From assembly GCA_030840645.1 (NCBI GenBank), contig JAVEEC010000105.1:1-64000 (forward strand): 64,000 nucleotides of DNA, given 5' to 3'. This document shows positions 13,047-61,173 of this stretch, one piece after another; within the stretch, counting starts at the first letter, position 1; each line of letters starts with the position of its first letter. This stretch comes from Frankiaceae bacterium. Its GTDB lineage: Bacteria; Actinomycetota; Actinomycetes; BP-191. The position numbers and the translations under genes are program-made. The notes beneath the pieces were generated by a model, which searched no databases, was not told where the DNA came from, and worked only from the letters and a program-made list of their open reading frames with translations.

Positions 13047-13048
13047 CG

Positions 13049-13504: not shown

Positions 13505-13683
13505 GCGAGCGATGGTACGTCGCCTCCACGCGGCCCGAGCGCGCGAATCAACCGGGCAAACACTCCGAAACCACGCAACCGCCGAGATCCGCTCGGGGTG
13601 CCACGCAGGAAGTTCGACACGGGAAGCCGAACCTGTCGGGTCAGCACCCACGCCCAGCAGCACCGCCATCAGGGAGAACCGAC

Positions 13684-17448: not shown

Positions 17449-17461
17449 GACGCGGGGGTTC

Positions 17462-17487
17462 CCGCGGCGCCGCTACCGGTGCCGCGG
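17462..17487. terminator. Bidirectional hairpin between convergent genes
   Basis: CCGCGGC and GCCGCGG (7-bp stem, 12-base loop) lie between the M36 protease stop and the 3' end of the DUF3052 gene. There is no T-tract on either strand. Confidence 0.4.
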
Positions 17488-17970
17488 GGCCCGCTGTCCC
17501 TTCGGCACGACCAGCTTCGCCGCGGCCCAGTCCTGCGACGCGGACACGGTGCTGGTCTGCGTGAGCCCGGCCGTGGGCGCCGCGTCGAGGATGTCGCTCG
17601 GCTCGACGTGGCCGTCGCGGCCGGCCTTCGGGGTGAGGACCCAGATGGCGCCGTTGTCGTCGAGGCGGGTGCGCGCGTCCATCAGCGCGTCGACCAGGTC
17701 GCCGTCGGCCTCGCGGAACCACAGCAGGACGACGTCCACGACGTCGTCCGAGTCCTCCGCGATCGGCTCGGCGCCGGCGCGCTCGACGATGGCGTCGACG
17801 ATCGCCGGATCGGCGTCGTCGTCCCTGCCCAGCTCCTGCACGACCATCCCCGCGATGATGCCGAGCTTGTCGGCCGCACCACGCTGACCTTCCGCGGACC
17901 CCGCGGTCACCACGTCGACGCACCCCGTTCCCGGCGCGGGCCGCTCGGCCCGCTCTTGGGGGTAGTCCAT
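17473..17970 (-). CDS. DUF3052 family protein
   Basis: A 165-residue acidic cytosolic protein. The core pattern ([66 protein letters not shown]) is the actinobacterial DUF3052 signature. In actinobacteria this gene usually stands head to head with aceE, as here, which supports both calls. Its function is not established. The ATG at 17970 is chosen; the family-typical part begins about 20 residues later, so the true start may be further in. Confidence 0.85.
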
Positions 17971-18064
17971 ACGTACCGGCCACGCGAACGCAAGTGACCT
18001 CGCCGTCACTGTCCGGCCGGCAGGGTGGGAGGATGCACGCGAAGAGGGAACGAGAGGAGCGTTG

Positions 18065-44875: not shown

Positions 44876-46927
44876 GTCGAACGCCACCGCGCCGTCAGCC
44901 ACGACGACGTCGACGGGGACGCTCCCGCCGTCGCCGCACAGTGCGCGCGCCGACGCGGTCGGGTGCGGCCAGCGCAGTGCCACCCGGCCGTCGTGCGGGC
45001 CGTGAGCGACACAGAGGGTGCCGTTGCCCGGCCGGTCCGGCCGCGTCGTCGTGACCGCGACGCCGGGCGGCGCGGCGACGACGTCGACCGTGTCGCGGTA
45101 CGACCCCGCCGCCAGCCACGGCGCGGCCGCGTGCCGCAGCGCGAGCAGGCCGCGTACCTCCGGCCACCACGCGGCGTCCGCCCTGGTCTGGTCCATGACG
45201 CCGAGCCACATGCCGGTCGCGACGCTGCGGCAGACCCAGTGCCGCGCCAGCTCGATCGGCATCGTCCCGAGGGCGTCGTACATCGAGCTCTCGGGTTCGC
45301 GGGTGTACGGCACGGTGTCGGCCTGGATCACCTCGGGGAACGTGAACGCGAACAGCTCGGGGAACTTCATGTCGTGCCCGACCGCGTAGAGGCTCACGTA
45401 GCTCTGCACCAGCACGTACGGCACCAGCACGTCCGACACGCCCTCGACGGCGAGCGCCGCGTCGGCGTCGCGCGCGCGGATGCGGGCGAGCACGTCGCGG
45501 GCGAGGGCGGCGTTCGCGGCGTTCCATCGATGCGGTCCTTCGTGCAGGTGCGAGCCGTCGTGACACGCCAGGGACGGCGCGGCGGCGAGCTGGTCGAGGA
45601 ACACGACGCGGACGCCGTAGTCCCCGGTCAGCATCTCGGCGAAGCCGCCGATGACCTCGCGCCAGTCGGGGCTCCCGGGGCAGCACGTCGTGAACTCCGA
45701 GCCGCCGTACGCCTCGTGGTTGACCGAGCCGTCGGCGGCCTTCGCCGCGCACCGCGCGCGCAGTGCCGAGTACGTCGAACGGTCGCTGAACAGCCGGCCG
45801 TTCAGGTACCCCATGATCTCGCCGCCGCGTTCGCGGATCGCCGCGTACGACGCGGCCATCGCGACCGGCCCGCCGAGGTCGAGGTCGGGGTAGAAGTCGG
45901 GGTTGGACGAGTCGAAGCCGCCCTGGCTCCACCCGTACGGCGACAGCGTGTCCAGGCCGAGCGGCCGCAGCTCGTCCAGCAGCGCGGGCAGGTCCGCGAA
46001 CCGGTGCTGGATGCGCCCGTCGCCTGTCTTGAGGAACGTGATCTGCAGCCCGGACCGCGCGCCCCACACGCCCGCTCCGACCGGCGGGGGGAACGCCGTG
46101 TCCCACCACGCGCGGTACCGCCCGGCGGCGCCGTGCCAGCCGTCGTCGTGGCCCGCGACGACGAGCGGCGGGCTCTGCCACGAGTGTCCTGCGACGACGT
46201 CGCACGGCAGCCGCAGGCTCAGCTCCAGACCGTCCGGACCGCTGAGCGCGCGCAGGTGGACCATGCCCGCCGCCGGGTCGTGCTGGCCGAGGTACAGGCC
46301 GAGGCCCGAGCGTTCGTAGTACAGCCACGGCATGCTCGCCGAGCCCGAGTACGGCAGCGCGTACAGGTGCTCGTCGCCGGTGCGCACGACGCGCGGCGCG
46401 CCGGTCGCGAGCGGGTCGCTGGTGTCCTCGGCGATCCGGCGCAGGCCGTCAGCGGCACCGGTGATGCGCTCGCCGCCCCAGAACGGCATCAGCAGCACGT
46501 CGTCCGGCGTGGAGGCGAGGCGGCCGAACGGCGCCAGGTCGACCGCCGTGACGACGTGAGTGAACGAGTCGTTCGTGACGTCGAGGCGCCAGGTATCGCC
46601 GGACACCCGCAGCGACGACGCGATCGGCAGTGCCTCGCCGGCGCACGCGACCGTCGACGCGTGCCACGACGTGCCGTCCGCGGAGTCGACGAGGGGCAGG
46701 CCCGCCACCTCGCCCGCGGGGAACAGGTGCTCGGCCCACCACTCCCCCGACGGTCCGCTGAACACCGCCTTCGGCGCGCCCTGCGGCGGGTCCTCGACCC
46801 GGCGCAGCAGCAGCCGCCAGCACGGCGCGTCCGCCGGCGTCCCGAGCGGCTCGCCGGCGTCGGCGCGCACCGACGTCACGCGCGCGTCCTGGTCGAGCGC
46901 GATGCGCAGCGGTCCGGCCGCGATCAC
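44834..46927 (-). CDS. Putative glycoside hydrolase, DUF6259-like
   Basis: A 697-residue cytosolic protein. The N-terminal ~220 residues form a beta-sandwich with glycosidase-like character (LYALPYSGSASMPWLYYE). A (beta/alpha)8 region follows: FLKTGDGRIQHRF, YGWSQGGFDSSNPDFYPD, GEIMGYLNGRLF, VVFLDQL (possible nucleophile Asp) and DADAALAVEGVSDV (possible acid/base Glu). A C-terminal beta domain ends the protein. This layout matches DUF6259 glycosidase-like proteins. There is no signal peptide, so it works on imported oligosaccharide. GTG 46927 overlaps the upstream stop; it is the last gene of a seven-gene coupled operon. Confidence 0.7.
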   Translation of the reverse strand: MIAAGPLRIALDQDARVTSVRADAGEPLGTPADAPCWRLLLRRVEDPPQGAPKAVFSGPSGEWWAEHLFPAGEVAGLPLVDSADGTSWHASTVACAGEALPIASSLRVSGDTWRLDVTNDSFTHVVTAVDLAPFGRLASTPDDVLLMPFWGGERITGAADGLRRIAEDTSDPLATGAPRVVRTGDEHLYALPYSGSASMPWLYYERSGLGLYLGQHDPAAGMVHLRALSGPDGLELSLRLPCDVVAGHSWQSPPLVVAGHDDGWHGAAGRYRAWWDTAFPPPVGAGVWGARSGLQITFLKTGDGRIQHRFADLPALLDELRPLGLDTLSPYGWSQGGFDSSNPDFYPDLDLGGPVAMAASYAAIRERGGEIMGYLNGRLFSDRSTYSALRARCAAKAADGSVNHEAYGGSEFTTCCPGSPDWREVIGGFAEMLTGDYGVRVVFLDQLAAAPSLACHDGSHLHEGPHRWNAANAALARDVLARIRARDADAALAVEGVSDVLVPYVLVQSYVSLYAVGHDMKFPELFAFTFPEVIQADTVPYTREPESSMYDALGTMPIELARHWVCRSVATGMWLGVMDQTRADAAWWPEVRGLLALRHAAAPWLAAGSYRDTVDVVAAPPGVAVTTTRPDRPGNGTLCVAHGPHDGRVALRWPHPTASARALCGDGGSVPVDVVVADGAVAFDLPEGLLRAVVVSE

Positions 46928-48837
46928 CCGGCCTCCTCGCCGAGCCGGGTCGCGAGCAGGACGTACTGCTCCCTGATCCGCGCGAAGCGGCGCAGGTTCG
47001 CGTCGAGACCCTGCGGCCGGTTGGTGCGCAGCCACAGCTCCTCGAAGCGGCGCTCGATCGCGGCCAGCGCGGGCGCGAGCGCGCCGACCTCGCGCGCGGC
47101 CGTCGCCGCGTCGCCCGCCTCGGCCAGCGACCGCGCGCGGTCCAGGACGAGGAGGCGTTCGACGGTGTGCGCCGTCCAGCGGAGCGCGTGCTCCAGCAGG
47201 TCCAGGTGCTCGTGGTTGCGGCGGACCGCCGACCGCGCGCGGTGCAGCCGTTGGGCGGCGGTCGCCAGCTCGGCGGCGGAGCGTTCGAGCAGCGCCACCT
47301 CGGCCGGGTCGAGGACCGGCGGCGCGGGGGGCGAGTTGAGCAGCGCCCAGAGGTGGAACCACGTCCAGCCGCGCATGCCGAACGTGTCGACCGGCGGCGT
47401 GTCCGGCGGCGCCGGCGGGCGCGGGAACAGGTCGTCGGTCCGCCCCAGCAGGTCGAGCAACGCGGCCAGGTCTTCGTCGACGACGCCGTAGAACTGCTCG
47501 ACGAACGCCGCCGTCGCCTCGCGCGCCGAGCCCTCGCGCGGCTGCCACGCGGCGTCGGAGAGCACCGCGATGCCCTGGTAGTTCAGCGCGCGCAGGTTGT
47601 CGCCGCCCTCGTCGCAGAACGACGACGCGAAGAACGCGTCGCCACCCGCGTCCGCGGTGACCATCGCGAACGACTCGATGCACGGCTCGGCGAGTGCCCA
47701 GCGTGGGTGCAGCCGGGTGTAGTTCGACAGCGTCGTCACGGCCCACGGCGCGTACCCCTCGCGGACCAGCGTCGCGAGCAGGTCGTGCTTCTCGGTCGGG
47801 AGGAACGCCGCGACGACCGGCACCATGTCGCGCGAGAGCCGCAGCGCGTCCGACACCGGGAACGGCGCCGGGCGCCGCCACACATCCCGGTAGTAGCCGG
47901 TGTCGAACATGTCGCACGCCACGACCGCGGTCTTGCCGAGGCCCGCGGCGATGGCCCGCACGCGTTCCGCGTGGGCGAGCCAGCGGTCCGAGCCCTCGTC
48001 CATCCCGAACGCCTCGTCGGCGCCGATCACGACGTAGCGCGAGGGGAACGACGCGGCGAGGTCCGCCAGCAGGTCCGCGATCAGGTCGTACGCGCCGGGC
48101 CGGTCGGGGCCGAGCAGCGAGGTGTTCTCCTCGGTCTCGCGCAGGTGCGCGTACTCGGGCAGGCCGAGGATGCGTTCCATGTGGCCGAGGGTCTGGATGG
48201 CGGGAACGAGCTCGACGTGGTGGGCGCGCGCGAACGCGTGCAGGTCCGCGACCTCGGCCCGGGTGAGCCGGCCGCGGCCCGCGCCGATCAGCGGGTGCGA
48301 GCGGAACTCGAACATGTCCTCCAGGTAGAACGCGTAGTGCGTGACCTTCTGCTCGCCGAGGAAGGCGACGACGTCGCGCAGGTCCGCGAGCGTCGAGACC
48401 TGGCCGCGCGCGAGGTCGTCGGTGTAGCCGCGGATCGCGAGCCGCGGCGCGTCCACGACCCGCCCGCATCGGACCGGTTCGCCGCGCAGCGCCGCGCGGC
48501 GCAGCACCTGCAGCACCGTCATCGCGCCATGGTGCGCACCGGCGACGGTGCGACCGGTCACGACGATGCCGTCGGGACGCAGCTCCGCGACGTACGCCTC
48601 GGGGCCGCCGGCCGGCTCGTCGCCGACGCCCACGGTGAGCGGGACGCGTTGCGCCGCAGGCTCTTCGCGCCCGGCATCGATACCGGCGGCGGCCAGCTCC
48701 GCGACGAGGTACGCCGTACCGTCGAGGTCCGCGTCGTCGGTGCTCAGGACGGACACGCCGCGCGACAGGTCGAGCGAGCCGGCCAACGGCTCGACGCGCA
48801 GCGGCCTCGGCACCAGGCTCCGCGCCCAGTCCGTCAT
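46924..48837 (-). CDS. GH20-like beta-N-acetylhexosaminidase
   Basis: A 637-residue protein. Residues 1-130 are a GH20b-like domain (LVPRPLRVEPLAG, GPEAYVAEL, GAHHGAMTVLQVLR). The catalytic barrel starts with LAIRGYTDDLARGQ, has a long loop with YAFYLEDMFEFRSHP, and keeps the Asp-Glu pair as GADEAFG near residue 300, the place of the catalytic DE of GH20. A C-terminal helical domain (about 480-637) follows. GH20 enzymes release N-acetylglucosamine or -galactosamine through substrate-assisted catalysis. There is no signal peptide, so it acts inside the cell. ATG 48837 overlaps the PIG-L stop. Confidence 0.75.
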   Translation of the reverse strand: MTDWARSLVPRPLRVEPLAGSLDLSRGVSVLSTDDADLDGTAYLVAELAAAGIDAGREEPAAQRVPLTVGVGDEPAGGPEAYVAELRPDGIVVTGRTVAGAHHGAMTVLQVLRRAALRGEPVRCGRVVDAPRLAIRGYTDDLARGQVSTLADLRDVVAFLGEQKVTHYAFYLEDMFEFRSHPLIGAGRGRLTRAEVADLHAFARAHHVELVPAIQTLGHMERILGLPEYAHLRETEENTSLLGPDRPGAYDLIADLLADLAASFPSRYVVIGADEAFGMDEGSDRWLAHAERVRAIAAGLGKTAVVACDMFDTGYYRDVWRRPAPFPVSDALRLSRDMVPVVAAFLPTEKHDLLATLVREGYAPWAVTTLSNYTRLHPRWALAEPCIESFAMVTADAGGDAFFASSFCDEGGDNLRALNYQGIAVLSDAAWQPREGSAREATAAFVEQFYGVVDEDLAALLDLLGRTDDLFPRPPAPPDTPPVDTFGMRGWTWFHLWALLNSPPAPPVLDPAEVALLERSAAELATAAQRLHRARSAVRRNHEHLDLLEHALRWTAHTVERLLVLDRARSLAEAGDAATAAREVGALAPALAAIERRFEELWLRTNRPQGLDANLRRFARIREQYVLLATRLGEEAG

Positions 48838-49607
48838 CGCGGCATCACGTGGTCCTCCCGCGTACCCGGGGCGGCACCGGCGAGGACGAACGCCTCGGCG
48901 GTCGGCGCCGAGAACGCGTCGAGGATCCCACCGCCGCCGCCCTGGCTCAGGTGGCACGCGGCGGCCCGGCGCTTCACGTCGAGGAACGCCGTGACGTCGA
49001 CGACGGTGGTGATCGCCTCCTCCGGCACGACGACGAACTCCGGCACCGGCGGCCCGATGCTCGGGTTGCGGAGCTGCGCCTCCTGGTACTCCGCCAGGCA
49101 GTCCGGGTGCGCGTCGATCCACGCCATCACGCCGGCGACCTGCGCCGGACCGTACGCGACTTCGAGCAGGCGCGGCGTCAGCCCGCTCGCGGCGACCGCC
49201 CGCCGGGTCAGGGCGCCGACCGCCACGTGCGTCTCGTGCCCGGTCACGCCGTCGTTGCCGAACGTCAGCACGACGTCGGGCCGCAGGTCGCGGACCAGCC
49301 TCTCGACGGCGCGCTCGTGGTCGCGCGCGACCAGGTGGTAGTTGCCGCGGCGCAGGCACGGCAGCGCGCCCCAGGTGCGTTCGAGGTGGACGACTCGGGC
49401 CGCACCCAGCACCCGAGCGGCCGCCTCCAGCTCCACCTGCCGGGTCGCGATGATCGCGGCGGGGTTCTCGTCGGGCCCGCCGCCGCCACCGCCGCCGGTC
49501 GCGCAGACGATGGTGACGTCGACTCCCTCCGCCGCGCACCGGGCCAGCGTGCCGCCGAACGTCGTCTCGTCGTCCGGATGAGCGAGCACGGCGAGCAGTG
49601 CGCTCAC
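48834..49607 (-). CDS. PIG-L/LmbE family deacetylase
   Basis: A 257-residue zinc-dependent deacetylase. The metal site is seen in AHPDDE near residues 9-14 and GHETH near 125, with GNDG just before. The family removes acetyl from N-acetylglucosaminyl groups (mycothiol synthesis, GPI, antibiotics). In this operon it would deacetylate the amino sugar released by the GH20-like enzyme; that is inference from position. GTG 49607 overlaps the ROK kinase stop (GTGA), and its own stop overlaps the GH20-like start. Confidence 0.88.
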   Translation of the reverse strand: MSALLAVLAHPDDETTFGGTLARCAAEGVDVTIVCATGGGGGGGPDENPAAIIATRQVELEAAARVLGAARVVHLERTWGALPCLRRGNYHLVARDHERAVERLVRDLRPDVVLTFGNDGVTGHETHVAVGALTRRAVAASGLTPRLLEVAYGPAQVAGVMAWIDAHPDCLAEYQEAQLRNPSIGPPVPEFVVVPEEAITTVVDVTAFLDVKRRAAACHLSQGGGGGILDAFSAPTAEAFVLAGAAPGTREDHVMPR

Positions 49608-50557
49608 CGCGCGTCCATGGCGGCCGGGGCGAGCGCGGCCGACGCGGCGCCGACGACCGCGGCGTCGGACCCGAGCCGCGACACGACGACCTCGCACCGC
49701 TGCGCGAGCAGCGCGGCGTGGGCCGCGAAGAACGCGCGCGCCGGGTCGAGCAGCAGCGACCCCGCGCCGGAGACGCCGCCGTTGACGACGATCCGGTCCG
49801 CGAAGAACAGCTGGCCGACGGTGGCGCACGCCCAGCCGAGCGCCTCGCCCGCCGCGTCCCACACCAGGCGCACGCGCGGGTCGGTGAGGGCGTCCGGGGT
49901 GGTCAGCTCCTCGCAGCGCAGCGGCGGCCGGCCGGCGAAGCGCGGCAGCAGGGCCGCCTCGCGCAGCAGCGCGGTCGCGCTGAGGACGTCCTCGAGCAGC
50001 CGGTACCGCCCCGCCTCCGCCGGGGCGAACGGCATCCGCCCGCCCGCGCCACCGAGGACCGTGCCGTCGTGCACGAGCGAGACGCCGAGGCCGGTGCCGA
50101 CAGTCAGCACGAGCAGCCGCCGCGCTCCGGCATGGTGACCGGAGTGCAGCTCGCCGAGGGCTGCCGCCTCCGCGTCGTTGACAAGGACGGCGGGCACGCC
50201 GAGCGCGGTCGAGACGAGCGCGCGCAACGGCACCCCGTCCCAGCCGGGAAAGTGCCGCGCGTGGTGCAGGCAGCCGTCGTCGTCCAGCAGCCCGGGCACG
50301 CCGACGCCGGCGGCGGTGGCACCGGAGAGGCCGAGGCCGTGTGCGGTCGCCGCGATGCGCGCGACCAGGTCCTCGGGTCCGCGCCCCTGGTCGGTCGGCA
50401 GCGTGGCGGCCGCGAGCACCTGCCCGGCCGCCACGACGCCGACGCGCGTCGTGGTGCCGCCGACGTCGACGCCCCACGCGCAGGCGTCACGGTCGCGGAC
50501 GGACGGCAGCAGCCGGCGCCGCGTGGCGGCAGGCATCGAGAACCCGTTCTTCGTCAT
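49604..50557 (-). CDS. ROK-family sugar kinase
   Basis: A 317-residue ROK protein. The phosphate loop is GVDVGGTTTRVG near residue 29; GVPGLLD, NDAEAAALGE and VGTGLGVSLV are all typical, and GGVSGAG follows near the end. It lacks the Cys-rich zinc motif (CxCGxxGCxE) that most ROK kinases and repressors have, although the ROK repressor of the same cluster keeps it. No DNA-binding domain is present. It likely phosphorylates the imported hexose or amino sugar. ATG 50557 overlaps the SIS gene stop (ATGA). Confidence 0.85.
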   Translation of the reverse strand: MTKNGFSMPAATRRRLLPSVRDRDACAWGVDVGGTTTRVGVVAAGQVLAAATLPTDQGRGPEDLVARIAATAHGLGLSGATAAGVGVPGLLDDDGCLHHARHFPGWDGVPLRALVSTALGVPAVLVNDAEAAALGELHSGHHAGARRLLVLTVGTGLGVSLVHDGTVLGGAGGRMPFAPAEAGRYRLLEDVLSATALLREAALLPRFAGRPPLRCEELTTPDALTDPRVRLVWDAAGEALGWACATVGQLFFADRIVVNGGVSGAGSLLLDPARAFFAAHAALLAQRCEVVVSRLGSDAAVVGAASAALAPAAMDAR

Positions 50558-51579
50558 GTCGTAGGGGTCACCTTGCTCAGGCCCGCGGGCCGGTCGGGGT
50601 CGAGGCCGCGAGCGCGGGCCGAGTGCAGCGCGAGCTGCTGGCCCCGCACGACGAGCAGCAACGGCGCGAGCAGCTCGTGCACCGCCGGTACGGCGACGCC
50701 GGAGCCGGTCCGGTCGGAGACGAGGTGAACCGGGTGGCCGCGGTCACGGAGCCAGTCCTCGACCTCGACCGCGTCCGCCCACAACGCACCGCGCGAGCTG
50801 ATCGAGACGACCGGCGTCGCCGCCGGGTAGCCGGCGACCGGGCCGTGCCGCAGGTCCGCGCCGGACCCGCCCTCGGCCCGCACGCCCGCCGCCTCCTTCA
50901 GCTTCAACGCCGTCTCCAGCGCGACCGGGAGAACGACACCGCGGCCGAGGCAGAGCAACGACGTCGCGTCCGCGAGCGCGGTCGCCAGCGCGCGCGGCGA
51001 CGCGTCGTCGGCGAGCACCTCGTCCAGACCGTCGAGGACGGCGGCCCAGTCGGCGTCCGACCACGGCCCGCCGAACGCCGCCTCGGCGACGAGTGCAAGC
51101 GCCGCGAGCGATGCCGTGAACGTCTTCGTCGCCGGCACGGCCAGCTCGGGTCCGGCGTCGAGCGGCAGGCACCAGTCCGCGGCGGCGGCGAGCGGGCTGC
51201 CGTCGCCGTTGGTCACCGCGACCGTCCGCGCCCCGGCGGCGCGCAGCCGGCGCAGCACGTCGACCACCTCGGGCGTCTCGCCGGACTGGCTGATCCCGAC
51301 GGCGAGGAAGCCGGTGTAGTCGACGTCGGCGGCGTACCGCGTGTGGACGCTCAGCGCCGCGTTGAAGGACGGCCGTCCCGACAGCAGCTCGAACACGTAC
51401 CGGCCGTACACGGCGGCGTTGGCGGACGACCCGCGCGCGACGAACACGATCCCCGTCGGCGCTGCCGGCACCGCCACGGCCAGCCCCCCCAGCCGGCCGC
51501 GGCGGGCGACGAGGCCGCGCAGCACGGCAGCCTGCTCGGCCAGCTCCGTGGCCATCAGCGAAGCGATCACGGCGGTCAC
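50554..51579 (-). CDS. SIS-domain sugar isomerase/deaminase (GlmS/AgaS-like)
   Basis: A 341-residue protein with two SIS domains like the isomerase half of GlmS: FVARGSSANAAVYGRYVFE, GISQSGETPEVVDVLR, VTNGDGSPLAAAA, GPELAVPATKTFTASLAAL, then LCLGRGVVLPVALETALKLKEAAG. It lacks the glutaminase domain, so it probably interconverts an amino sugar phosphate and a ketose phosphate. GTG 51579 overlaps the stop of the MFS-ABC fusion; GTG 51570 and ATG 51555 are other possible starts. It fits downstream of the ROK kinase and deacetylase. Confidence 0.85.
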   Translation of the reverse strand: MTAVIASLMATELAEQAAVLRGLVARRGRLGGLAVAVPAAPTGIVFVARGSSANAAVYGRYVFELLSGRPSFNAALSVHTRYAADVDYTGFLAVGISQSGETPEVVDVLRRLRAAGARTVAVTNGDGSPLAAAADWCLPLDAGPELAVPATKTFTASLAALALVAEAAFGGPWSDADWAAVLDGLDEVLADDASPRALATALADATSLLCLGRGVVLPVALETALKLKEAAGVRAEGGSGADLRHGPVAGYPAATPVVSISSRGALWADAVEVEDWLRDRGHPVHLVSDRTGSGVAVPAVHELLAPLLLVVRGQQLALHSARARGLDPDRPAGLSKVTPTT

Positions 51580-53747
51580 TTCTTCACCCCGGCCTTCGAG
51601 GCGCCTTCGAGGAAGACCGAGCGGAGCAGGTCCTTCCTGGCCAGCAGCTTCCGCGCCGGGCCGTCGAACTGCATCTCGCCGCGTTCCATGAAGTAGGCGT
51701 GCTCCACGACCGAGAGCGCGATGTTGACCGACTGCTCGACGAGAACGACGGCGGTACCGGCCGCGTTGATGCGCTGCACCATCGCGATCAGCTCGCCGAC
51801 GACCTTGGGGGCCAGCCCGAGCGACAGCTCGTCGATGAGGAGCAGCCGCGGCGACAGGATCAGCGCCTGGCTCAGCCCCAGCATCTGCTGCTCGCCGCCG
51901 GACAGCGTGGACGCCGGCTGGCCGCGGCGCTCGTACAGCCGCGGGAACGTCTCGAACGCCGCCTCGATCCCGGCGTCGACGGACCGCGCGTTGCGACCGG
52001 CCGCGCCGCCGAACAGCTTGAGGTTCTCCGCGACGGTGAGCGGGCCGAACACCGCGCGCCCGCCCGGCACCTGTACGACGCCCATGCGCACGCGGCGCTC
52101 GGGGTCGACGTAGGTCATGTCGACGCCGCGCAGCCGGACCGAGCCCGCGGACGGGAGACCGAGCCCGGAGACGACGCGGAGCAGCGTCGACTTGCCCGCG
52201 CCGTTGGTGCCGAGCAGCGCCACCATCTCGCCGTCGTCCACGGTGAAGTCGACGCCGAACAGCACCTGCACCTGGCCGTACGAGAAGTCGAGGCCGCGGC
52301 AGGCCAGCAGCGGTGGCGTCCTGCCCGACGCGACGAGCCGGCGCGACTCCTCCTCCTCGACGATCTGCGCGAGCATCGTGTCGAGGTCGGCGTTGATCGT
52401 CTTCGCGGCGCCGCGGATGACGGCGGTCACGACCGCACCGGAGAGCGCGATGACGACGACGATGCCGACGGTGCCGTAGCGCCGGTCGACGCCGCCGAGC
52501 AGCACCAGGCCGCCGGTGCCGCCGATCGCGGCGTAGCTCACCCCCGCGAGCGCGGCGGCGTGCGGCCGGAACCGCGCGGGGATGGTCGAGTGCAGCGCCG
52601 TCGCGAGTGCCGGCCCGAGCGTCGCGAACAGCGCCCCTGCGGCCGCGAACAGCACCGCCACGACGGCGAAGACCGGGACGAGGAAGCCGGCGCAGACGCA
52701 GAGCGTCGCGACAGAGAACGCGACGGCGTTCGCGAGGACCAGCCGCGCGGGGTCCTCCCGGAACAGCCGTTCGCCGTACCGGCCGAACGCGACGAGCGCC
52801 CCGACGGAGACGACCTGCACGAAGCCGAAGAAGACCGCCCGCTCGCCGACGCCGAGCCGCCAGCGGTCGGCGAGGAAGAACACGAGGTACGTCGACAGCG
52901 GGATCTGCGCGAGCCCGAGCAGGGCGTTCGCGCCGAGCACCCGGCGGATCGTCGGGATGAGCAGCAGTCGCCGCGCGATCTCGAAGAACCCGAGGTCCGC
53001 GCCGAGTCCCTCGGACTCGGTCTCCGGCACGGCGTCGGGGTTGCCGAGGGCGGCGCGTACGGCGGCCTCGTCGCGGACCCCGAAGCCAGGGTCGCGCAGC
53101 CGCAGCGAGACCAGGCAGGCCATCAGCGAGGCGAGGCCGAGTGCGACGAACGTCCCCCGCCAGGTGAGGCGGTACGTCGTCGCGAGCACGGCGACGAGCA
53201 GCGGCGTGAGGATCGCGCCGCCGACCTCCCAGGTGCGGTACGCCGACAGCACGCGGACGCGGGTCGACGGCGGGTACGTGTCGAGCAGCAGCGGCTGGTG
53301 CACGGTCGTGACCGACGCCGTCGACACGCCGTCCGCGACGAGGACGAGAAGCAGCCAGGGCAGCGCGGCGACGAAGCCGGTGAAGATCGTGAGCACGCTC
53401 CACGTGAACGCCGTCACGATCGCCAGCGCCGCGCGCCGCCTGCCCTTCTGTACGAGCGCCGCGATCGGCAGCGTGCAGAGCGTCACGGCGAGCGTCTTGA
53501 TGGCGAACACGCCCGCCAGCTCGGTCTTGCCGACGCCGAGCGCCCGGCCGATCTCCGGCGACAGGATGACGAACGCCGTCCCCTGGAACTGGTCGACCAC
53601 GGCGAGCACGCCGAGCACCGTCAGCGTGTACCAGCTCGCGGCGTGGCGGCGCAGCTCGCCGCGCAGCGACCCGCGCGCGCTCCCGTCGCCGACGCCGACC
53701 GTCGCGCGGGCGGTGGCCAGCGCGTCCGCCTGCGTCACGGCGGTCAC
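51576..53747 (-). CDS. Fusion of MFS transporter domain and LivF-like ABC ATPase
   Basis: A 723-residue protein. Residues about 35-440 are a 12-helix MFS domain (VSVGALVAFGRYGERLF and VSYAAIGGTGGLVLL among the helices). Residues about 475-705 are an ABC ATPase closest to LivF: Walker A GTNGAGKST near 511, VQVPGGRAVFGPLTVAENL, signature TLSGGEQQML, Walker B LLLIDELSLGLAP, switch LVEQSV. LivF is normally a free subunit; a permanent link to an MFS protein is unusual. The partner is probably the LivHMG fusion at 55422-58256. GTG 53747 overlaps the lipoprotein stop, and the downstream GTGA couples it to the SIS gene. Confidence 0.85.
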   Translation of the reverse strand: MTAVTQADALATARATVGVGDGSARGSLRGELRRHAASWYTLTVLGVLAVVDQFQGTAFVILSPEIGRALGVGKTELAGVFAIKTLAVTLCTLPIAALVQKGRRRAALAIVTAFTWSVLTIFTGFVAALPWLLLVLVADGVSTASVTTVHQPLLLDTYPPSTRVRVLSAYRTWEVGGAILTPLLVAVLATTYRLTWRGTFVALGLASLMACLVSLRLRDPGFGVRDEAAVRAALGNPDAVPETESEGLGADLGFFEIARRLLLIPTIRRVLGANALLGLAQIPLSTYLVFFLADRWRLGVGERAVFFGFVQVVSVGALVAFGRYGERLFREDPARLVLANAVAFSVATLCVCAGFLVPVFAVVAVLFAAAGALFATLGPALATALHSTIPARFRPHAAALAGVSYAAIGGTGGLVLLGGVDRRYGTVGIVVVIALSGAVVTAVIRGAAKTINADLDTMLAQIVEEEESRRLVASGRTPPLLACRGLDFSYGQVQVLFGVDFTVDDGEMVALLGTNGAGKSTLLRVVSGLGLPSAGSVRLRGVDMTYVDPERRVRMGVVQVPGGRAVFGPLTVAENLKLFGGAAGRNARSVDAGIEAAFETFPRLYERRGQPASTLSGGEQQMLGLSQALILSPRLLLIDELSLGLAPKVVGELIAMVQRINAAGTAVVLVEQSVNIALSVVEHAYFMERGEMQFDGPARKLLARKDLLRSVFLEGASKAGVKK

Positions 53748-54211
53748 GTCGCCGCCTCGGTCACGACGAAGTCCACGAACGCCGCCGTCTCCCCGATGCG
53801 GCGCGTCCCGCCGTCGACCAGCACGATCGTCACCTCGTGGCGGTTCCTGTCGACCGACGCGGTGTCGGAGCGGCGCGTCAGCTCGGCGACCGTGAACGAC
53901 GTGTCCGTCGTCTCGAACACGCCGGTCTGCCGGCCGCGCAGCGCGACGGGGACGTTGCGGTCCAGCCACGCCAGCGTCTTGCCGGGCCGCTGCGGCGCGC
54001 GGTCGACGAACACCGCGAAGTGCGACCCGGGCGGCGGACGCTCCATCGTCCAGCGGATCGTCAACGGCAGCGTCACGCGCGCGCCGGACGCCGGGGAGGT
54101 GATCTTCAGCCGCCGGTCCTGGCGGAACAGCAGCCCCTCCGACGAGCAGCCGGACAGCGCCACGAACGCCGTGACGAGCGCGACCAGGCGGCGGGACGAG
54201 GGCGCGGTCAC
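53744..54211 (-). CDS. Small lipoprotein, first gene of the seven-gene operon
   Basis: A 155-residue protein with a basic N-terminus, a hydrophobic stretch and the lipobox ALSGC (Cys about 22). The mature part has an Ig-like beta pattern (ITSPASGARVTLPLTIRWTM). The function is unknown; it may bind carbohydrate or serve the transporter at the outer face. It begins at GTG 54211, only 38 bp from the divergent ROK repressor, so both are controlled by the same short region. Its stop overlaps the MFS-ABC fusion start. Confidence 0.72.
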   Translation of the reverse strand: MTAPSSRRLVALVTAFVALSGCSSEGLLFRQDRRLKITSPASGARVTLPLTIRWTMERPPPGSHFAVFVDRAPQRPGKTLAWLDRNVPVALRGRQTGVFETTDTSFTVAELTRRSDTASVDRNRHEVTIVLVDGGTRRIGETAAFVDFVVTEAAT

Positions 54212-54230: not shown

Positions 54231-54252
54231 TGTATGCCAAACTAAGTTCGTG
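54231..54252. promoter_or_regulatory. Operator-like AT-rich site between lipoprotein and ROK repressor
   Basis: AACTAAGTT (54240-54248) is a perfect palindrome around one base and ends 1 base before the GTG of the repressor gene, in a 38-bp divergent gap. No ribosome site precedes that GTG. TATGCC (54233-54238) could be its -10, which would make the message leaderless and put the palindrome over the start point. Confidence 0.45.
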
Positions 54253-55494
54253 GAACGCCGAGTCGACCCGCGCCGGATGCGGCAGATCAACAGGGGCGGC
54301 GTGCTGCGGATGCTGCGCGACGGCGGTCCCATGTCGCGGACCGAGCTGGCCGAACGCAGCCGCATGGCCAAGCCCACGGTCGCCGCGATCGTCGACGACC
54401 TCGTCGCCGAGGGGCTCGTCAACGAGGTCGGCCTCGGCGAGGCGATGGCCGTCGGCGGCCGCCGCCCGCGGCTGCTGGAGTTCAACGAGTCGTCCATCGC
54501 GTACCTCGGCGTGGAGTTCGGCGTGACGCGTACCTCCGTCGCCGTCGCCGACGGTCGCGGGCACCTGGTCTCCGTGCGTTCCCGGCCGTCGGTCACCGGC
54601 GCCCCGGCGCGCAGCGTGCAGGAGGTCCGCCGCCTCGCGGCTGCCGCGCTGGAGTCGGCGGGCATCCCGCTCGACCGGGTCGAGGCCGTCGGCGTCTCCG
54701 TGCCGGGCAGCGTCGACACCGACGGCGTATGCACCGCGGGCAACCTGCAGTGGTCGGACTTCCCGCTGCGCGACGCCATCGAGGAGGTCCTCGGCCGGCC
54801 GACCGTCGTCCGCGACAACGCCGACGTCGCCGCGCTGGCCGAGGGCGAGCTCGGTGCCGCCGTCGACGCGCGGACGTACGTCCGCGTCTACCTCGGCAGC
54901 GGTGTCGGCGCCGGCATCATGATCGACCGCGAGATGTACTCCGGCAGCAGCGGCGCCAGCGGCCAGCTCGGCCACTGCGTCGTCGTGGACGACGGGCCGC
55001 TCTGCGTCTGCGGGCAGCACGGCTGCCTCGAGGCTGTCGCGTCCGCGCAGGCCGTCGTTCGCGACGTCGAACGCGCCCGCGGCGCGGGCCGGCGCGGCCG
55101 CCGCCCGCCGCCGCTCGACGCGGTCGAGGTCTGCCGGCTCGCCGCCGAGGGCGACGAGCTCGCCGTCGCGGCGATGTTGCGCGCGGCCAAGCACGTCAGC
55201 CGCGGCATCTCGTACCTGGTCAACATCCTCAACCCGGAGCTGATCGTCGTCGGCGGCGTGCTCGCCTCGGCGGGCGACGTGTTCCTCGACGAGGTGCGCC
55301 GCATCCTGCGCCAGCAGCTCACCGGCCGGCCCGAGGTCCCGCTCGTCGGTACCGCGCTCGCCGACTCCGCGGAGCTGCAGGGCGCGGTGCTGCTCGCCAT
55401 GCGCAGCAAGGACCAGGAGGATCACCTGCTCACCCCGGCCCTGGCGGCGGTCGCCGACGCGGGGCGGCGCGCCGCCGTACGCCCCGAGCGGTAG
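54250..55494 (+). CDS. ROK-family transcriptional repressor (NagC/XylR type)
   Basis: A 414-residue regulator. An N-terminal winged helix (about 15-75: RGGVLRMLRDGGPMSRTELAE, then SRMAKPTVAAIVDDL) precedes a ROK sugar-binding domain with GVEFGVTRTSVAVADGRG, GVSVPGSVD, NDADVAALAE-like DNADVAALAEGE, and the zinc motif GHC...CVCGQHGCLE near 243-260. It should release DNA when the inducing sugar binds and control the surrounding operons. GTG 54250 has no ribosome site; ATG 54277 is an alternative. Its last 73 bases overlap the 3' end of the LivHMG gene on the other strand. Confidence 0.9.
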   Translation: MERRVDPRRMRQINRGGVLRMLRDGGPMSRTELAERSRMAKPTVAAIVDDLVAEGLVNEVGLGEAMAVGGRRPRLLEFNESSIAYLGVEFGVTRTSVAVADGRGHLVSVRSRPSVTGAPARSVQEVRRLAAAALESAGIPLDRVEAVGVSVPGSVDTDGVCTAGNLQWSDFPLRDAIEEVLGRPTVVRDNADVAALAEGELGAAVDARTYVRVYLGSGVGAGIMIDREMYSGSSGASGQLGHCVVVDDGPLCVCGQHGCLEAVASAQAVVRDVERARGAGRRGRRPPPLDAVEVCRLAAEGDELAVAAMLRAAKHVSRGISYLVNILNPELIVVGGVLASAGDVFLDEVRRILRQQLTGRPEVPLVGTALADSAELQGAVLLAMRSKDQEDHLLTPALAAVADAGRRAAVRPER

Positions 55495-58256
55495 ATCGCG
55501 CGGGCGTCGCCGCCGAGGTAGGACTCCACGACGCGCGGGTCGCGCTGCACGTCCTTCGGCGCCCCGTCCGCGATGACCACGCCGCTCTCCATCGCGACGA
55601 CGCGGTCGGCGAGCCCCATGACCAGCGGGATGTCGTGCTCGATCAGCAGCAGCGTCGCGCCGAGCTCGTCGCGCAGCCTGCGCAGCAGCCCGGCCAGCGC
55701 CTCGCTCTCCCGCTGCGCGATGCCGGAGGAGGGCTCGTCGAGGAGCAGGAGCGTCGGCTCCATCGCGACGACGCCGGCCAGCTCCACGATGCGGCGCATG
55801 CCGGTCGAGATCTCGCAGACCTGCTTGTGCCTGTGGTCGCCGAGCGCCATCAGGTCGAGCAGCTCCTCGACCCGCATGCGCCGGCTGCCGGCCCGGCCGC
55901 CGAACCCCGCGACGGCCGCGGCGAGCCGCGTCGGGAACTCGCGCTCCAGCGCGACGTGCAGCACCTCCTCGACGGTCAGCGTCGGGAACAGCGCCGCGTC
56001 CTGGAAGGACCGCACCAGGCCGAGCCGCGCGCGGGCGTGCGGCGCCGCGTCGGTGATGTCGCGCCCCTGGAACGTCACCCGGCCCGTGTCCGCTCGGACG
56101 AAGCCGCTCACGATGTCGAACAACGTCGTCTTGCCGGCGCCGTTCGACCCGATCAGCCCGACCGTGGTGCCGCGCTCCAGCGTGAGGCTGACACCGGCCA
56201 CCGCCTCGACGCCGCCGAAGCTGCGCCGCAGGTCGGTTGCGACGAGCAGCGGCCCGTTGTCGGCTGCGGTGGCCGCGGAACGCGCGCGCGTCGTCGCGGA
56301 CCCCATCGCCGCGGCCAGGTCGCCGTCCGTCGATGGCTCGACGTCGAGCGCCGCGCGGCCGCGGGTGACCAGCGCGATCACCCTGTCCCGCAACGGTTCC
56401 AGCAACTGCCCGATGCCGCCGGGGGCGTACAGGATCAGCAGCAGCCAGCCGAGCGACGTCGCCGCGAGGCTGGCGTTGTCGAGCGGCACGAACGCCGGCA
56501 TGCCGACGAGGTACAACGCCCCGAGCACCGGTCCCAGCAGCAGGCCGAGACCGCCGAGAACGGTGAGCGCGACGAGCGTCGTGCTCGTCGCCGCGGGGAA
56601 CGTCTGCGCGGAGACGTTGGAGAGGCTGTGCGCGTAGAGCGCGCCGCCGAGCCCGGCCAGCGCGCCCGCGACGCCGAACGCCTGGAGCGAGCGCAGCCGG
56701 ACCGACACGGTCATCGCGCGCGCCTGGTCGTCGTTGTCGCGCATCGCGCGGAACAGCCGCCCCGCGCTCCCCCGCCGGACGTTCGCCGCGACCAGCAGGC
56801 CGAGCAGGAACACGGCGAGGGCGAACACGTAGTACCGCTTCGCGGTGTTCAGCGGCAGGCCGCCGAGGACGGGACGGCCCGGCGTGACACCCGAGCCGAA
56901 CGCCCACGGCTGCTGCAGCGCCCACGCCTCGGTGGCCAGCGCGAACGACAGCGTCGTGACGGCGAGCATCAGGCCCCGGACGCGCAGTGCCGGCAGCCCG
57001 ACCGCGAGCGAGACGACCGCACCCGCGACGGCGGCGGCGAGGAACGCGAGCGGGAAGTTGCCGGTCCAGAACGTCACCCAGTACGACGCCGTCGCGCCGA
57101 CTCCGGCGACCGCGAACTGGCCCAGCGAGAGCTGGCCGGCGAGGCCGGTCACGATGCCGAGCGACAGGCCGACCAGGCTGTACGCGAGGATCGTCGTGAG
57201 GACCGACGCGGTGCGGTTCGTCGCCCACACCGGCACCGCGACCGCGAACCCCAGTGCCAGCCCGACGAGGCCGCGCCGGAGCCACACGACCTCGGGCAGC
57301 TTCGCGACGGCGGGCGGCAGCGGCCGCCACGCGCGGACCGCGGTCCACGATCCCTTCTCGCGCAGCCGCGACATCTCCTTGGACCGGGTCAGCAGCGCGA
57401 GCAGGATGACGGCGAACAGCAGCGTCTCGACGTACCCGCCCGACGGGAAGTTGTAGTAGAGCACCTGCTCGACGACGCCCACGCCGATGCCGGCGAGGAA
57501 CGCGAGCGGCAGGCTGGTCATGCCGACGAGCACCGCGGCGGCGAGCGCGCGCAGCAGCAGCCCGGGCCCGAGCGAGTCGCCGACGAACGGCCGCGTCGGG
57601 AACACCAGGATCGCGGTCAGCGCGGACACCGCGCCCGCGATCCCCCACGCGAGCGTGGACATGCGCGAGGCGTAGACGCCGGAGAGCTGCGCGCGCTCCG
57701 GGTTCGCCGCCGCGCCGCGCATCGCGATGCCCGCGCGGCTGCGCCTGAGGAACACCGCGATGCCGAGGACGACGAGCGGCAGCAGGACCAGCATGCCGGT
57801 GTACGCGGGCGTCAGCCGCAGCGCGCCGACGTCGATCGTCGGCAGGCCCGGCGGCTGCGGGAACGTGTTGCCGGTCACCGCGCTGCCCTTGCCGTGCCCC
57901 GACACCGCCGCGCCGGCGAGCAGCAGGAACTGCGCGACGCCGAGCGTCGCGACGACGCTCATCACGCGCGGCGCCTTGCGGAGCCGCCGGACCACGGCGA
58001 CCTCGACCACCGCCCCGACCGCGGCGCCGACGGCGAGCGCGGGGACCATCGCGACCCAGTACGGCACGTGCCAGACGTTGACGACGAGCGCGAACGTCGA
58101 CGCCGTGAACGCGCCGACCTCGCCGTGCGCGAAGTTCACGATGTTGTTCTGCCGGAACACCAGGACGAGACCGACGGCGAGGATGCCGTACGTCGTGCCG
58201 ATCACCAGGCCGAGCACCAGGACCGGGACGACGATCTCGATCCCGAAGAACGTCAC
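55422..58256 (-). CDS. Fused LivH-LivM-LivG ABC importer (two permeases and ATPase in one chain)
   Basis: A 944-residue protein. Residues about 1-300 are LivH-like permease (QNNIVNFAHGEVGAF), about 325-640 LivM-like permease (GLAGQLSLGQFAVAGVGA, VSLAVGLPALRVRGLMLAV), and about 690-920 LivG-like ATPase (Walker A GSNGAGKTT near 702, signature region CEISTGMRRIVELAGVVAMEP, Walker B LLLLDEPSSG, switch LLIEHDI). In normal transporters these are three genes. The signature is ISTGMRR in place of LSGGxQQ, a deviation in the LivG half; the LivF half in the MFS fusion is canonical. GTG 58256 overlaps the GH gene stop. Confidence 0.9.
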   Translation of the reverse strand: MTFFGIEIVVPVLVLGLVIGTTYGILAVGLVLVFRQNNIVNFAHGEVGAFTASTFALVVNVWHVPYWVAMVPALAVGAAVGAVVEVAVVRRLRKAPRVMSVVATLGVAQFLLLAGAAVSGHGKGSAVTGNTFPQPPGLPTIDVGALRLTPAYTGMLVLLPLVVLGIAVFLRRSRAGIAMRGAAANPERAQLSGVYASRMSTLAWGIAGAVSALTAILVFPTRPFVGDSLGPGLLLRALAAAVLVGMTSLPLAFLAGIGVGVVEQVLYYNFPSGGYVETLLFAVILLALLTRSKEMSRLREKGSWTAVRAWRPLPPAVAKLPEVVWLRRGLVGLALGFAVAVPVWATNRTASVLTTILAYSLVGLSLGIVTGLAGQLSLGQFAVAGVGATASYWVTFWTGNFPLAFLAAAVAGAVVSLAVGLPALRVRGLMLAVTTLSFALATEAWALQQPWAFGSGVTPGRPVLGGLPLNTAKRYYVFALAVFLLGLLVAANVRRGSAGRLFRAMRDNDDQARAMTVSVRLRSLQAFGVAGALAGLGGALYAHSLSNVSAQTFPAATSTTLVALTVLGGLGLLLGPVLGALYLVGMPAFVPLDNASLAATSLGWLLLILYAPGGIGQLLEPLRDRVIALVTRGRAALDVEPSTDGDLAAAMGSATTRARSAATAADNGPLLVATDLRRSFGGVEAVAGVSLTLERGTTVGLIGSNGAGKTTLFDIVSGFVRADTGRVTFQGRDITDAAPHARARLGLVRSFQDAALFPTLTVEEVLHVALEREFPTRLAAAVAGFGGRAGSRRMRVEELLDLMALGDHRHKQVCEISTGMRRIVELAGVVAMEPTLLLLDEPSSGIAQRESEALAGLLRRLRDELGATLLLIEHDIPLVMGLADRVVAMESGVVIADGAPKDVQRDPRVVESYLGGDARAIYRSGRTAARRPASATAARAGVSR

Positions 58257-59569
58257 GGGGTGATCGTCACGATCATCGCCTCGCCGTCCGCGACGCTCGG
58301 CAGCGTCAGCGCCAGCCGGCCACTCGTCACCGACACGGAGCCCGACGACACCGCGACCGGGCCGGTCAGCGCGCCGCGCTGGTTCGGGATCCGCTGCACG
58401 ACGACGGTCGCGCTGGTCACGCCCGAGGGCATCGCCACGTCGAGCGGGACGTTCACCGTCGGCAACGAGCCGTCGTTGCTCTGCCGGCCGGCCAGCACCC
58501 GCACGACGCCGCCGGTGTCCCGCGCGGCGAGCACCGAGAGGTGCGGGTCACGACCGGTGATCGTGAGCCGGTCGCCGACCAGGTCCGCGTACGCGCGGTG
58601 CGTCCAGTAGACAGCGGTCGGCGTGACGCCGTCGGAGAGGAACAGCCCGTCCACCCCTGCGGCGCAGCCACTGTAGACCGTGCTCGTCGGCGTGTCGGAG
58701 GTGTCCCAGCAGGCGCGGTTGGCGACCGCGACCCCGGCCTGCTCCATCGCGGCGAACCACCCGACGTTCCACGCCGGCTTCGCGAAGTCGGCCGCGCTGG
58801 AGTACTCGTTGACGTGGATCTCGGTGCCCTGCAGGCTGCGCGCGGCGAGCAGCCCGTCGACCACGCCGACGTCGGCGACGGCGGTGTCCGGACCGCCCGC
58901 CGTGACGGCGGCGCCACTCGTGTCGGGGATCTCGTGCCACGACACCGCGGTGTCGGCCATCCCCTGCGCGGCGACCTGGTCGAGGTAGCTGGACAGGTCG
59001 AGGTCGTGCGCCCACTCCGGGGTGAGCGGCGCCGCGCGGTACGGCTGGAACCTGCCGAGGCTCGGCCCGACCATCCGCGCGTCCGGGTCGACGTCGCGGA
59101 TCGCTTCGTACGTGTGCTCGAACGTCATGAGCAGCATCTCGCGGGTGCCGGGGTAGCCGTTGTTCGGCTCGTTCATCGCGTCCCAGTACGTCACCGGGCG
59201 GTCCGTGTCGATGCTCCACTGGACCAGGTCCCGGACGAACTGGTCGTACGCGGGGAACGCCGCGGCCGCGGGCATCCCGCCGTTCGCGCTGCGCCACGAG
59301 TCGCTGACGACCCAGGTGATGGTCTGCGCCCCGAACGACTTCGCGAGGTCGTACGTCGTGGCGTCGTTGACCCGCCAGTTCTGGACGTGCAACGGCGTCA
59401 TCAGGGTCGACGACGCGCCCGCCCCGAGGCCGTGCAGGAAGCCCTGCGCCGCGTGGGTCATCGCGCCGGCGGACGTCGTCGTGACGACCGCGTCGGGGCC
59501 GGTCGCCCGGGCCGCGGTCGGGGACGCCGCCAGCGCAAGGGCGGCGAGCAGTGCGGTTCTGGTGCGCAT
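58253..59569 (-). CDS. Secreted clan GH-A glycoside hydrolase (GH39-like)
   Basis: A 438-residue protein. There is a signal peptide of about 22 residues, then a (beta/alpha)8 domain with acid/base Glu134 in AMNEPNNG and a probable nucleophile Glu255 in IHVNEYSS, as in clan GH-A families such as GH39. The last ~90 residues are a beta-sandwich. It is secreted, so it could release the sugar that the adjacent transporter imports. The exact family and substrate are not certain. ATG 59569 has TAAGGA at the right distance; ATG 59578 would be too close. It lies between the binding protein and transporter genes. Confidence 0.78.
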   Translation of the reverse strand: MRTRTALLAALALAASPTAARATGPDAVVTTTSAGAMTHAAQGFLHGLGAGASSTLMTPLHVQNWRVNDATTYDLAKSFGAQTITWVVSDSWRSANGGMPAAAAFPAYDQFVRDLVQWSIDTDRPVTYWDAMNEPNNGYPGTREMLLMTFEHTYEAIRDVDPDARMVGPSLGRFQPYRAAPLTPEWAHDLDLSSYLDQVAAQGMADTAVSWHEIPDTSGAAVTAGGPDTAVADVGVVDGLLAARSLQGTEIHVNEYSSAADFAKPAWNVGWFAAMEQAGVAVANRACWDTSDTPTSTVYSGCAAGVDGLFLSDGVTPTAVYWTHRAYADLVGDRLTITGRDPHLSVLAARDTGGVVRVLAGRQSNDGSLPTVNVPLDVAMPSGVTSATVVVQRIPNQRGALTGPVAVSSGSVSVTSGRLALTLPSVADGEAMIVTITP

Positions 59570-59580
59570 CGTCGCCATCC

Positions 59581-61173
59581 TTAGTAAGGGCTGGTGCGGA
59601 AGGAGGAGCTGTAGCGCCAGCAGCCGTTGCCGTCGCCGCAGTCGCTGACGAACTTCGTCAGCGCGTAGCTGTTGGCGCCGTCGTGGCGGCCCGCGCCGAG
59701 CCTCGTCCCCTTGACCCAGATCGACTGGAACGACGTCCCGAGGCGTTCGACCAGCGACGCGGCGTCGGACTGCGGCAACGCCCTGCCGGTCGCGGGCGCG
59801 AGGGCCTGCCTCACGAAGCTGACCATGTCGCAGGCCCGCATCGAGAAGTCGATCGCCGCGCCGCCGTCCTTCGGCATGTGCGTGCCGAGCCGCTTGTTCA
59901 TGACGTTCCAGCAGGCCGTCATCAACGGCGTCGGCTTGGCGTACGGGTCGTAGCCGCCGGTGTCGTACGCGGGCGTGTAGCCGAAGCCGACCGCACCCTG
60001 CACCGACTTCGCCGGGATGCCGAGCCCCCCGCTGCCCGGCGTCATGCACGGCCCGGGACAGTCCAGCGTGCTGACGCCGAGCCGCGGGTAGTAGCCCTGC
60101 GCGTCGGCCTGCTTGGCGAACAGCAGCGGCGCGCCGCCGCCCGGCGCGAAGAACACCACGCGGTCGACGCTGTGCTGGCGGAACGTGAGGACCGCGTTCG
60201 CCGTCTGCGAGCCGAGGTCGCTGTAGTCCACCTTGGTGAAGATCTTGTCGGTCACCGCGCCGCCGCGGGCCTTGATGCCGGGGATGACGATGTTCTCGAC
60301 GATCGACCGCGTCGCGGGCAGGTCGTAGGCGATGATCCCGACGTGCTTGGTCAGGAAGCCCTGCTCGGCCAGCGCGTCGGGGAGCAGCCGGCCCATCCGG
60401 GTGAGGTTCATCGAGATCGGCGCGAAGAAGTACGGCGACAGCCGGGAGACGGTGTCGGCGTCGTAGCTCTGCAGCTCGCGGTCGAACAGCGGCGTGTGGT
60501 GCTGGGCGTAGCAGGGCGCCGCGAACGTCGTGCCGCCGACGTTCAGGGCGATCGCCGCGAACACCTTGCTGTCCTCCGTGAGCGAGGTACAGATGGTGTT
60601 CTGGATGTTGGTCTGGCCGCTCTGGCTGTTGTCGGTGTTGTCGTTGGTCTGGTAGACGGGCACGATCTTGCGCCCGGCGATGCCGCCGTGCGCGTTGGCG
60701 TCGTCGACGAGCGCCTGCACGACTTGTTTCGGCGTCAGGTCCGTCGAGGACTGGCCGGGCACGCCGAACGCCTGGCCCGGGTTGCCGCCCGGCAGGATGA
60801 ACCCGATCTTCAACGTCGTCGACGTGACGCCGCCGGCCCCGCCGCCGCTCCCGCCGCTCCCGCCGGACCCACCCGAGCCGCCCGAGCCGCCGGAGCCGCT
60901 GCCGCCGGACCCGCCGGTGCCACCCGTTCCGCGGGACCCGGGAGCGCCGGAGGCGCCGGGACCGCCCGAGGCGCCGGGCGCGAGGCTGCCGGACGGCAGG
61001 GGCTTCCCGTCGGGTCCGATGCTCACGCCGGCCGAGCTGCTCGGGTCGCCGCTCTGCTGCGAGACGCCGCCGTTCGCGCCGTGGGTGCCCGTGCTGCTAC
61101 ACCCGCTCACGAGCAGCGTTCCGGTCACGGCCGCCAGCGCGATCCGCCGGGTCAGGGGGGACAGCCGTCGCAT
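59581..61173 (-). CDS. Liv-type ABC substrate-binding lipoprotein
   Basis: A 530-residue lipoprotein. Lipobox LVSGC (Cys25). Residues about 30-115 are a Gly/Ser/Pro linker with a run of GGSGGSG. The rest is a type I periplasmic binding fold like LivJ/amide-binding proteins (LKIGFILPGGNPG, DDANAHGGIAGRKIVPVYQTND, AQGYYPRLGVSTLD). The long linker sets the binding domain off the membrane. Although the family is usually for amino acids, amides or urea, the gene neighbours suggest a carbohydrate-derived ligand. ATG 61173 follows AGGAG. It is the first gene of the three-gene import operon. Confidence 0.88.
   Translation of the reverse strand: MRRLSPLTRRIALAAVTGTLLVSGCSSTGTHGANGGVSQQSGDPSSSAGVSIGPDGKPLPSGSLAPGASGGPGASGAPGSRGTGGTGGSGGSGSGGSGGSGGSGGSGGSGGGAGGVTSTTLKIGFILPGGNPGQAFGVPGQSSTDLTPKQVVQALVDDANAHGGIAGRKIVPVYQTNDNTDNSQSGQTNIQNTICTSLTEDSKVFAAIALNVGGTTFAAPCYAQHHTPLFDRELQSYDADTVSRLSPYFFAPISMNLTRMGRLLPDALAEQGFLTKHVGIIAYDLPATRSIVENIVIPGIKARGGAVTDKIFTKVDYSDLGSQTANAVLTFRQHSVDRVVFFAPGGGAPLLFAKQADAQGYYPRLGVSTLDCPGPCMTPGSGGLGIPAKSVQGAVGFGYTPAYDTGGYDPYAKPTPLMTACWNVMNKRLGTHMPKDGGAAIDFSMRACDMVSFVRQALAPATGRALPQSDAASLVERLGTSFQSIWVKGTRLGAGRHDGANSYALTKFVSDCGDGNGCWRYSSSFRTSPY

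Follow-up and report, generated by a model that had tools for sequence, protein, structure and literature searches.

ABC transporters, which are ATP-driven, and MFS carriers, which are gradient-driven, are treated as separate classes, and a conserved fusion bridges both. Such a fusion is encoded in the window, namely the whole stretch of 64,000 nucleotides from a Frankiaceae bacterium that was analyzed here. The locus raises the question of why an entire 12-helix carrier has been retained on the ATPase of an importer, and this question is directly testable. The initial annotation read the MFS part either as a scaffold for an ABC importer or as part of a transporter driven in a mixed way.

The fusion gene and its reading frame

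The fusion, its domains, and the neighboring genes are listed in Table 1. Pfam profiles matched MFS_1 at residues 50–410 (E 7e-23) and ABC_tran at residues 498–640 (E 6e-25) of the window protein, and both families were matched by all of the fusions scanned (70/70). Among the NCBIfam models, those of UrtE/LivF were nearest to the ATPase, which carries the Walker A motif GTNGAGKST, the signature LSGGE, the Walker B motif LLLIDE, and VEQS. These motifs were canonical in nearly all of the 70 members counted. AlphaFold2 (AF2) modeling of the fusion from a 70-sequence alignment gave a pLDDT of 93.1 and a pTM of 0.91, the latter suggesting a defined arrangement of the MFS and ATPase parts in the predicted protein. 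The modeled helices fit 12 transmembrane (TM) segments, and an unbroken helix at residues 391–473 leads into the ATPase. The linker region of ~37 residues (445–481) measured 36–38 residues in 60/70 members, and its Asp454 was invariant (70/70). A Foldseek search with the fusion showed no MFS-ATPase chain among the 50 matches listed, which were mainly ATPases and ordinary ABC exporters.

Table 1. Positions, strands, and supporting evidence of the features around the MFS-LivF fusion in the window.
Feature	Position	Strand	Basis
GH20-like hexosaminidase (start approximate)	46924..48741	-	Pfam Glyco_hydro_20 and 20b
PIG-L family deacetylase (start approximate)	48834..49613	-	Pfam
ROK-family sugar kinase	49604..50557	-	Pfam
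SIS-domain sugar-phosphate isomerase/deaminase-like	50554..51579	-	Pfam SIS, sequence
MFS-LivF fusion gene, 723 aa + stop, GTG start	51576..53747	-	Translation, Pfam, AF2, own-genome paralogues
LivF-type ATPase, aa 481-715	51603..52307	-	Pfam, UrtE/LivF NCBIfam best matches, motif counts (70 members)
Helical linker from TM12 to ATPase, aa 450-480	52308..52400	-	AF2 helix, length and residue conservation
Spinster-type MFS domain, 12 helices, aa 40-449	52401..53630	-	Pfam, AF2 helices, family profile vs HnSPNS 6e8j
Lipoprotein, 155 aa, lipobox Cys22, predicted Ig-like fold	53744..54211	-	Family of 23, AF2, Foldseek; overlaps fusion start by 4 bp
ROK-family transcriptional regulator, between two transporter units	54250..55494	+	Pfam ROK, MarR-type HTH
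944-aa LivH-LivM-LivG fusion: single chain with two permease domains plus the second ATPase	55422..58256	-	Pfam BPD_transp_2 (2 stretches), ABC_tran, BCA_ABC_TP_C
Solute-binding protein (Peripla_BP_6)	59581..61173	-	Pfam

That the two domains lie in one continuous frame, as first annotated, proved real; Pfam, AF2, codon-position GC, and the paralogues agree. Codon-position GC was uniform over the entire frame, with a GC3 of 0.95–1.00. Two further full-length fusions are encoded in the same genome, one of 725 aa (C12, 54% identical to the window fusion) and the other of 666 aa (C87, about 37% identical), and a search for the same fusion elsewhere collected 76 full-length relatives from Actinomycetota. 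Therefore, a frame error joining two genes is ruled out by the paralogues, the relatives, and the uniform codon pattern.

Linkage to a Liv-type importer, neighbors and relatives

The flanks of the 76 fusions were fetched and annotated with profiles built in this analysis. LivH or LivHM(G) permease genes adjoined 75/76 fusions, and the remaining one (L142) was located at a contig edge. The fusion had the form MFS-F in 55/76 loci, with LivG usually fused to LivHM, and the form MFS-F-G with a separate HM in 21/76. MFS-F with HMG, MFS-F-G with HM, and MFS-F with HM and G each make up one complete Liv set, and a solute-binding protein (SBP) gene was usually close to the fusion. No MFS-less LivF was found beside the fusions in the 76 loci, except for one F-G relative in locus L072. 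Therefore, gene linkage and the counting of parts indicate that the fused ATPase is most likely the LivF serving the adjoining LivHM(G) importer, so that an association of the fusion with a Liv importer is strongly supported. The window itself encodes the parts of a Liv/HAAT importer: two BPD_transp_2 permease domains in LivHMG, both LivG- and LivF-type ATPases, the LivG signature being degenerate, and a Peripla_BP_6-type SBP. An LSTG(T/S)RR-type signature replaces LSGGQ in the LivG partners, as observed for the window protein and 72 LivG domains of related loci; such a LivG opposite a canonical LivF makes an asymmetric ATPase pair.

The coupled operon of the initial annotation was upheld in part. 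The start of the fusion gene overlaps the stop of the lipoprotein gene by 4 bp, and its stop overlaps the start of the SIS-domain gene by 4 bp. However, LivHMG and the fusion form separate transcription units in the window, because the plus-strand ROK regulator gene intervenes. This arrangement is unlike those of the C12 paralogue locus and most relatives, where LivHMG and MFS-LivF adjoin. Between the window's SBP and LivHMG genes lies a secreted-looking gene (58256–59587) without a Pfam match.

No Pfam match was obtained for the window lipoprotein. Its AF2 model (pLDDT 85.5) retrieved only generic beta-sandwiches in Foldseek, the p53 core included, and the predicted fold would be Ig-like and nothing more specific. 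Lipoproteins of 150–180 aa with a lipobox Cys were present near 23/28 fusions of the sub-clade that includes the window protein, and only in that sub-clade; besides the window copy, this family includes the protein encoded at L021:7242–7718. Judged from gene neighborhood, this outer-face lipoprotein is a probable partner of the MFS module.

Neighbor families were tallied over adjoining proteins, without a background rate, as pointers to the cargo. In the window, the GH20, DUF6259, PIG-L, SIS, ROK kinase, and ROK regulator genes make an amino-sugar the likely cargo. At the 22 other lipoprotein-bearing loci, PucR-type regulators, peptidases of families M19, M20, M17, S9, and S15, and MR_MLE enzymes were among the neighbors, which suggests peptides. 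The MFS part is kept while the neighbors change, which argues weakly against a cargo-specific carrier role.

Full-length matches were found in at least 31 of 395 sampled genomes of the class and in at least 19 of 397 genomes of the phylum sample, both counts being lower bounds for which the best few candidates per genome were scored. Labeled carriers were MAGs designated Actinobacteria, Acidimicrobiaceae, and Actinomycetota. One MAG labeled Proteobacteria gave only a partial MFS match, and no fusion was found in 249 genomes from the phylum of a MAG with that label, with a positive control absent in that group. A scan of named genomes with narrow peptide patterns yielded only 4 loci, and SBP, MFS-LivF, and LivHMG were all present in the named isolate Embleya sp. 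NBC_00888, found in the plasmid collection. One soil MAG (G754) contained at least six MFS-LivF fusions. The same genome encodes a standalone Spinster-type MFS (L172:4604–6802), possibly of an ancestor type.

The three fusions of the window genome were absent from two genomes of the same genus (G001 and G002, 99% complete); therefore, the fusions may be mobile or often lost. Positions 1–19000 of the window and of the C87 contig showed a GC of about 0.68 and tetranucleotide correlations of 0.95 and 0.92, respectively, versus about 0.96–0.99 elsewhere, and are possible islands. Assembly contamination was rejected as the source of the fusions, as the tetranucleotide use of the window, and of most parts of the three fusion contigs, matches that of the genome.

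In a quick ATPase tree, whose inner support was moderate, all fusion ATPase domains fell in a single clade (SH-aLRT 99). MFS-less H-M-F-G proteins and one F-G protein nested inside this clade, with supports of 83–88 at the deep forks. The simplest account of this tree would be one gain of the MFS part and its later loss. The ABC core can therefore exist without an MFS, so the MFS part would be accessory. The H-M-F-G proteins carry LivH, LivM, LivF, and LivG in one polypeptide (L068:4918–8724, L069:2705–6604, L070:538–5001, and L071:6103–10305), with frames of about 1270–1490 codons that adjoin an SBP gene.

Residues of the MFS part and its possible roles

Among solved structures, the fusion-family MFS profile best matched HnSPNS (6e8j; E 1.3e-40), aligned over most of the domain, and HnSPNS, Spinster homologue 1, and DgoT were the top matches, although the window sequence alone matched DgoT better than HnSPNS. 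The fusion thus combines a 12-helix MFS fold with Spns sequence similarity. In HnSpns, the proton network consists of Asp41 (TM1) together with Arg122 and Glu129 (TM4), of which Glu129 is the proton switch, and besides the motif-A relay Asp87-Arg91-Asp142 there is a tether between Asp87 and the loop 6-7 Arg233 (PMC9440201). The counterparts of Asp41, Arg122, and Glu129 in the window protein are Asp52, Leu136, and Thr143, and those of Asp87, Arg91, Asp142, and Arg233 are Gln100, Arg105, Asp156, and Phe222.

These positions were counted over 70 fusions, 28 from the window sub-clade and 42 from the rest. The initial annotation had named the loss of ion-coupling residues as a point to check, and this loss was observed. 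The motif-A Asp was present in 0/28 sub-clade members versus 42/42 outside. Lost in step with it was the loop 6-7 Arg (1/28 versus 42/42), its pairing partner in HnSpns, so that the tether is missing from the window protein. The TM4 Arg of the RxxxG motif was kept in 1/28 versus 37/42, and the Glu129 counterpart was retained as Glu in 0/28 and 2/42; neither is found in the window protein. The counterpart of the substrate residue Arg42 was Arg in only 1/70. In contrast, the buried TM1 Asp (Asp52), which the window protein shares with HnSpns, was kept in 24/28 and 35/42. A new buried TM4 Asp139 was observed in 20/28 members of the sub-clade and His150 in 23/28, and Asp156 and Arg163 also remain. 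The wider fusion family keeps the RLREPxRG loop 6-7 and the TM4-5 D-x-Y-P-P-x-x-R. Judged from these alignments, the Spinster gate and proton network are dismantled in the window sub-clade while buried acids persist, so that the domain looks rebuilt rather than dead. The losses represent one clade-level event rather than repeated independent losses; therefore, the correlation between residue loss and the lipoprotein is not statistically independent.

Owing to these losses, a scaffold or sensor reading is favored for the window protein. On balance, we lean toward a Liv-type ABC importer in which an accessory module derived from an MFS carrier is attached to LivF and would act as a scaffold or sensor in the membrane, the MFS half probably being an accessory part of the importer and not an independent pump. 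The SBP, the LivH-M-G fusion, and MFS-LivF would assemble into one complete importer, in which ATP hydrolysis by LivF and LivG would power uptake via LivH/LivM. The MFS module, permanently attached at the LivF N-terminus and presumably descended from Spinster-type carriers, would be located beside or near the permease, tied to LivF by the helical linker of fixed length. In the window sub-clade, it would no longer work as a Spinster-type proton-coupled carrier and would serve the ATPase as a scaffold or sensor, with the lipoprotein as its probable partner on the outer face. However, the separate transcription units of the window fusion and LivHMG speak against this reading, and a pure scaffold is opposed by an MFS domain that has not decayed. 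MFS_1 was matched in every fusion scanned, and Asp52 and the new Asp139 are present in most of the sub-clade, such that the retained features would seem to exceed the needs of an inert scaffold.

A closer integration, in which the MFS part and the importer ATPase form one working unit, is possible but doubtful; here ATP hydrolysis would drive or gate the alternating access of the MFS, or the MFS would sense an ion gradient or solute and gate the importer. The mixed drive of the initial annotation, which would combine ion-gradient and ATP transport in one polypeptide, has the buried Asp52 and Asp139 in its favor. The MFS would then still move a solute or ion, with its alternating access coupled to the ATPase through a rigid linker. 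The fixed linker length, the invariant Asp454, the buried Asp52, Asp139, and His150 kept in most of the sub-clade, and the motif-A Asp intact in all 42 fusions outside it are in line with such coupling. However, the Glu129 (2/70) and Arg42 counterparts are lost almost throughout, the motif-A Asp and TM4 Arg are gone in the window sub-clade, and the H-M-F-G lineage does without the MFS part, all of which render mixed drive rather improbable.

We also regard as unlikely that the MFS is a tethered but separate facilitator or exporter, for example for product overflow, that is merely co-expressed and co-located with the importer ATPase. Standalone Spinster-type relatives exist (L172), and a fusion could serve co-expression; nevertheless, the fusion is kept across many families with a linker that hardly varies in length and whose Asp454 is invariant, the gate residues are lost in the window sub-clade, and its retention beside varied catabolic genes would be odd for a substrate-specific carrier. 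Finally, expression as two proteins, with an internal start (GTG440 or ATG458, both present in the window gene) yielding free LivF and the long form being minor, is very improbable, as residue 458 is Met in only 17/70 fusions and conservation of both Asp454 and the linker length extends over the junction.

Comparison with known systems

No published description of an MFS-LivF fusion was found in the open-access literature. The parts are known and their conserved combination is apparently undescribed, although prior recognition in databases is possible. Annotators may enter such fusions as LivF or as MFS exporters, and either label is misleading. The family comprises a branch that has lost the MFS gating residues and another that retains them, and it offers a natural test system for how an MFS fold can come to serve a different pump in an accessory or regulatory role.

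The system resembles the Liv/HAAT importers (TC 3.A.1.4) and the urea transporter UrtABCDE in its SBP, two BPD_transp_2 domains, and LivG- and LivF-type ATPases, for which LivG and UrtE/LivF, respectively, were the top NCBIfam models. It differs from them in that LivF carries an N-terminal MFS, the permeases and LivG are fused, the LivG signature is LSTG(T/S)RR, an extra lipoprotein is present, and the neighbors suggest amino-sugars or peptides as cargo. With the Spinster carriers (HnSPNS 6e8j; DgoT), it shares the profile match, the TM1 Asp and, in the wider fusion family, the loop 6-7 and TM4-5 motifs. In contrast to these carriers, it is fused to an ATPase, nearly all fusions have lost the Glu129 and Arg42 counterparts, and the window sub-clade has further lost the motif-A Asp as well as the Arg of TM4 and that of loop 6-7.

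ABC importers of the OpuA type bear CBS domains on the ATPase and are similar in that a regulatory domain is attached to the ATPase of an importer, whereas the extra domain here is a whole 12-helix membrane carrier at the N-terminus. Sensor kinase-MFS fusions form a named family, TC 2.A.1.34 (PMC3924187), in which an MFS is likewise fused to a cytosolic signaling module. Pfam showed only MFS_1 and ATPase domains, and no histidine kinase domain, in the window protein and the 70 members. The partner of the MFS is therefore an ABC importer ATPase, in contrast to the histidine kinase of TC 2.A.1.34.
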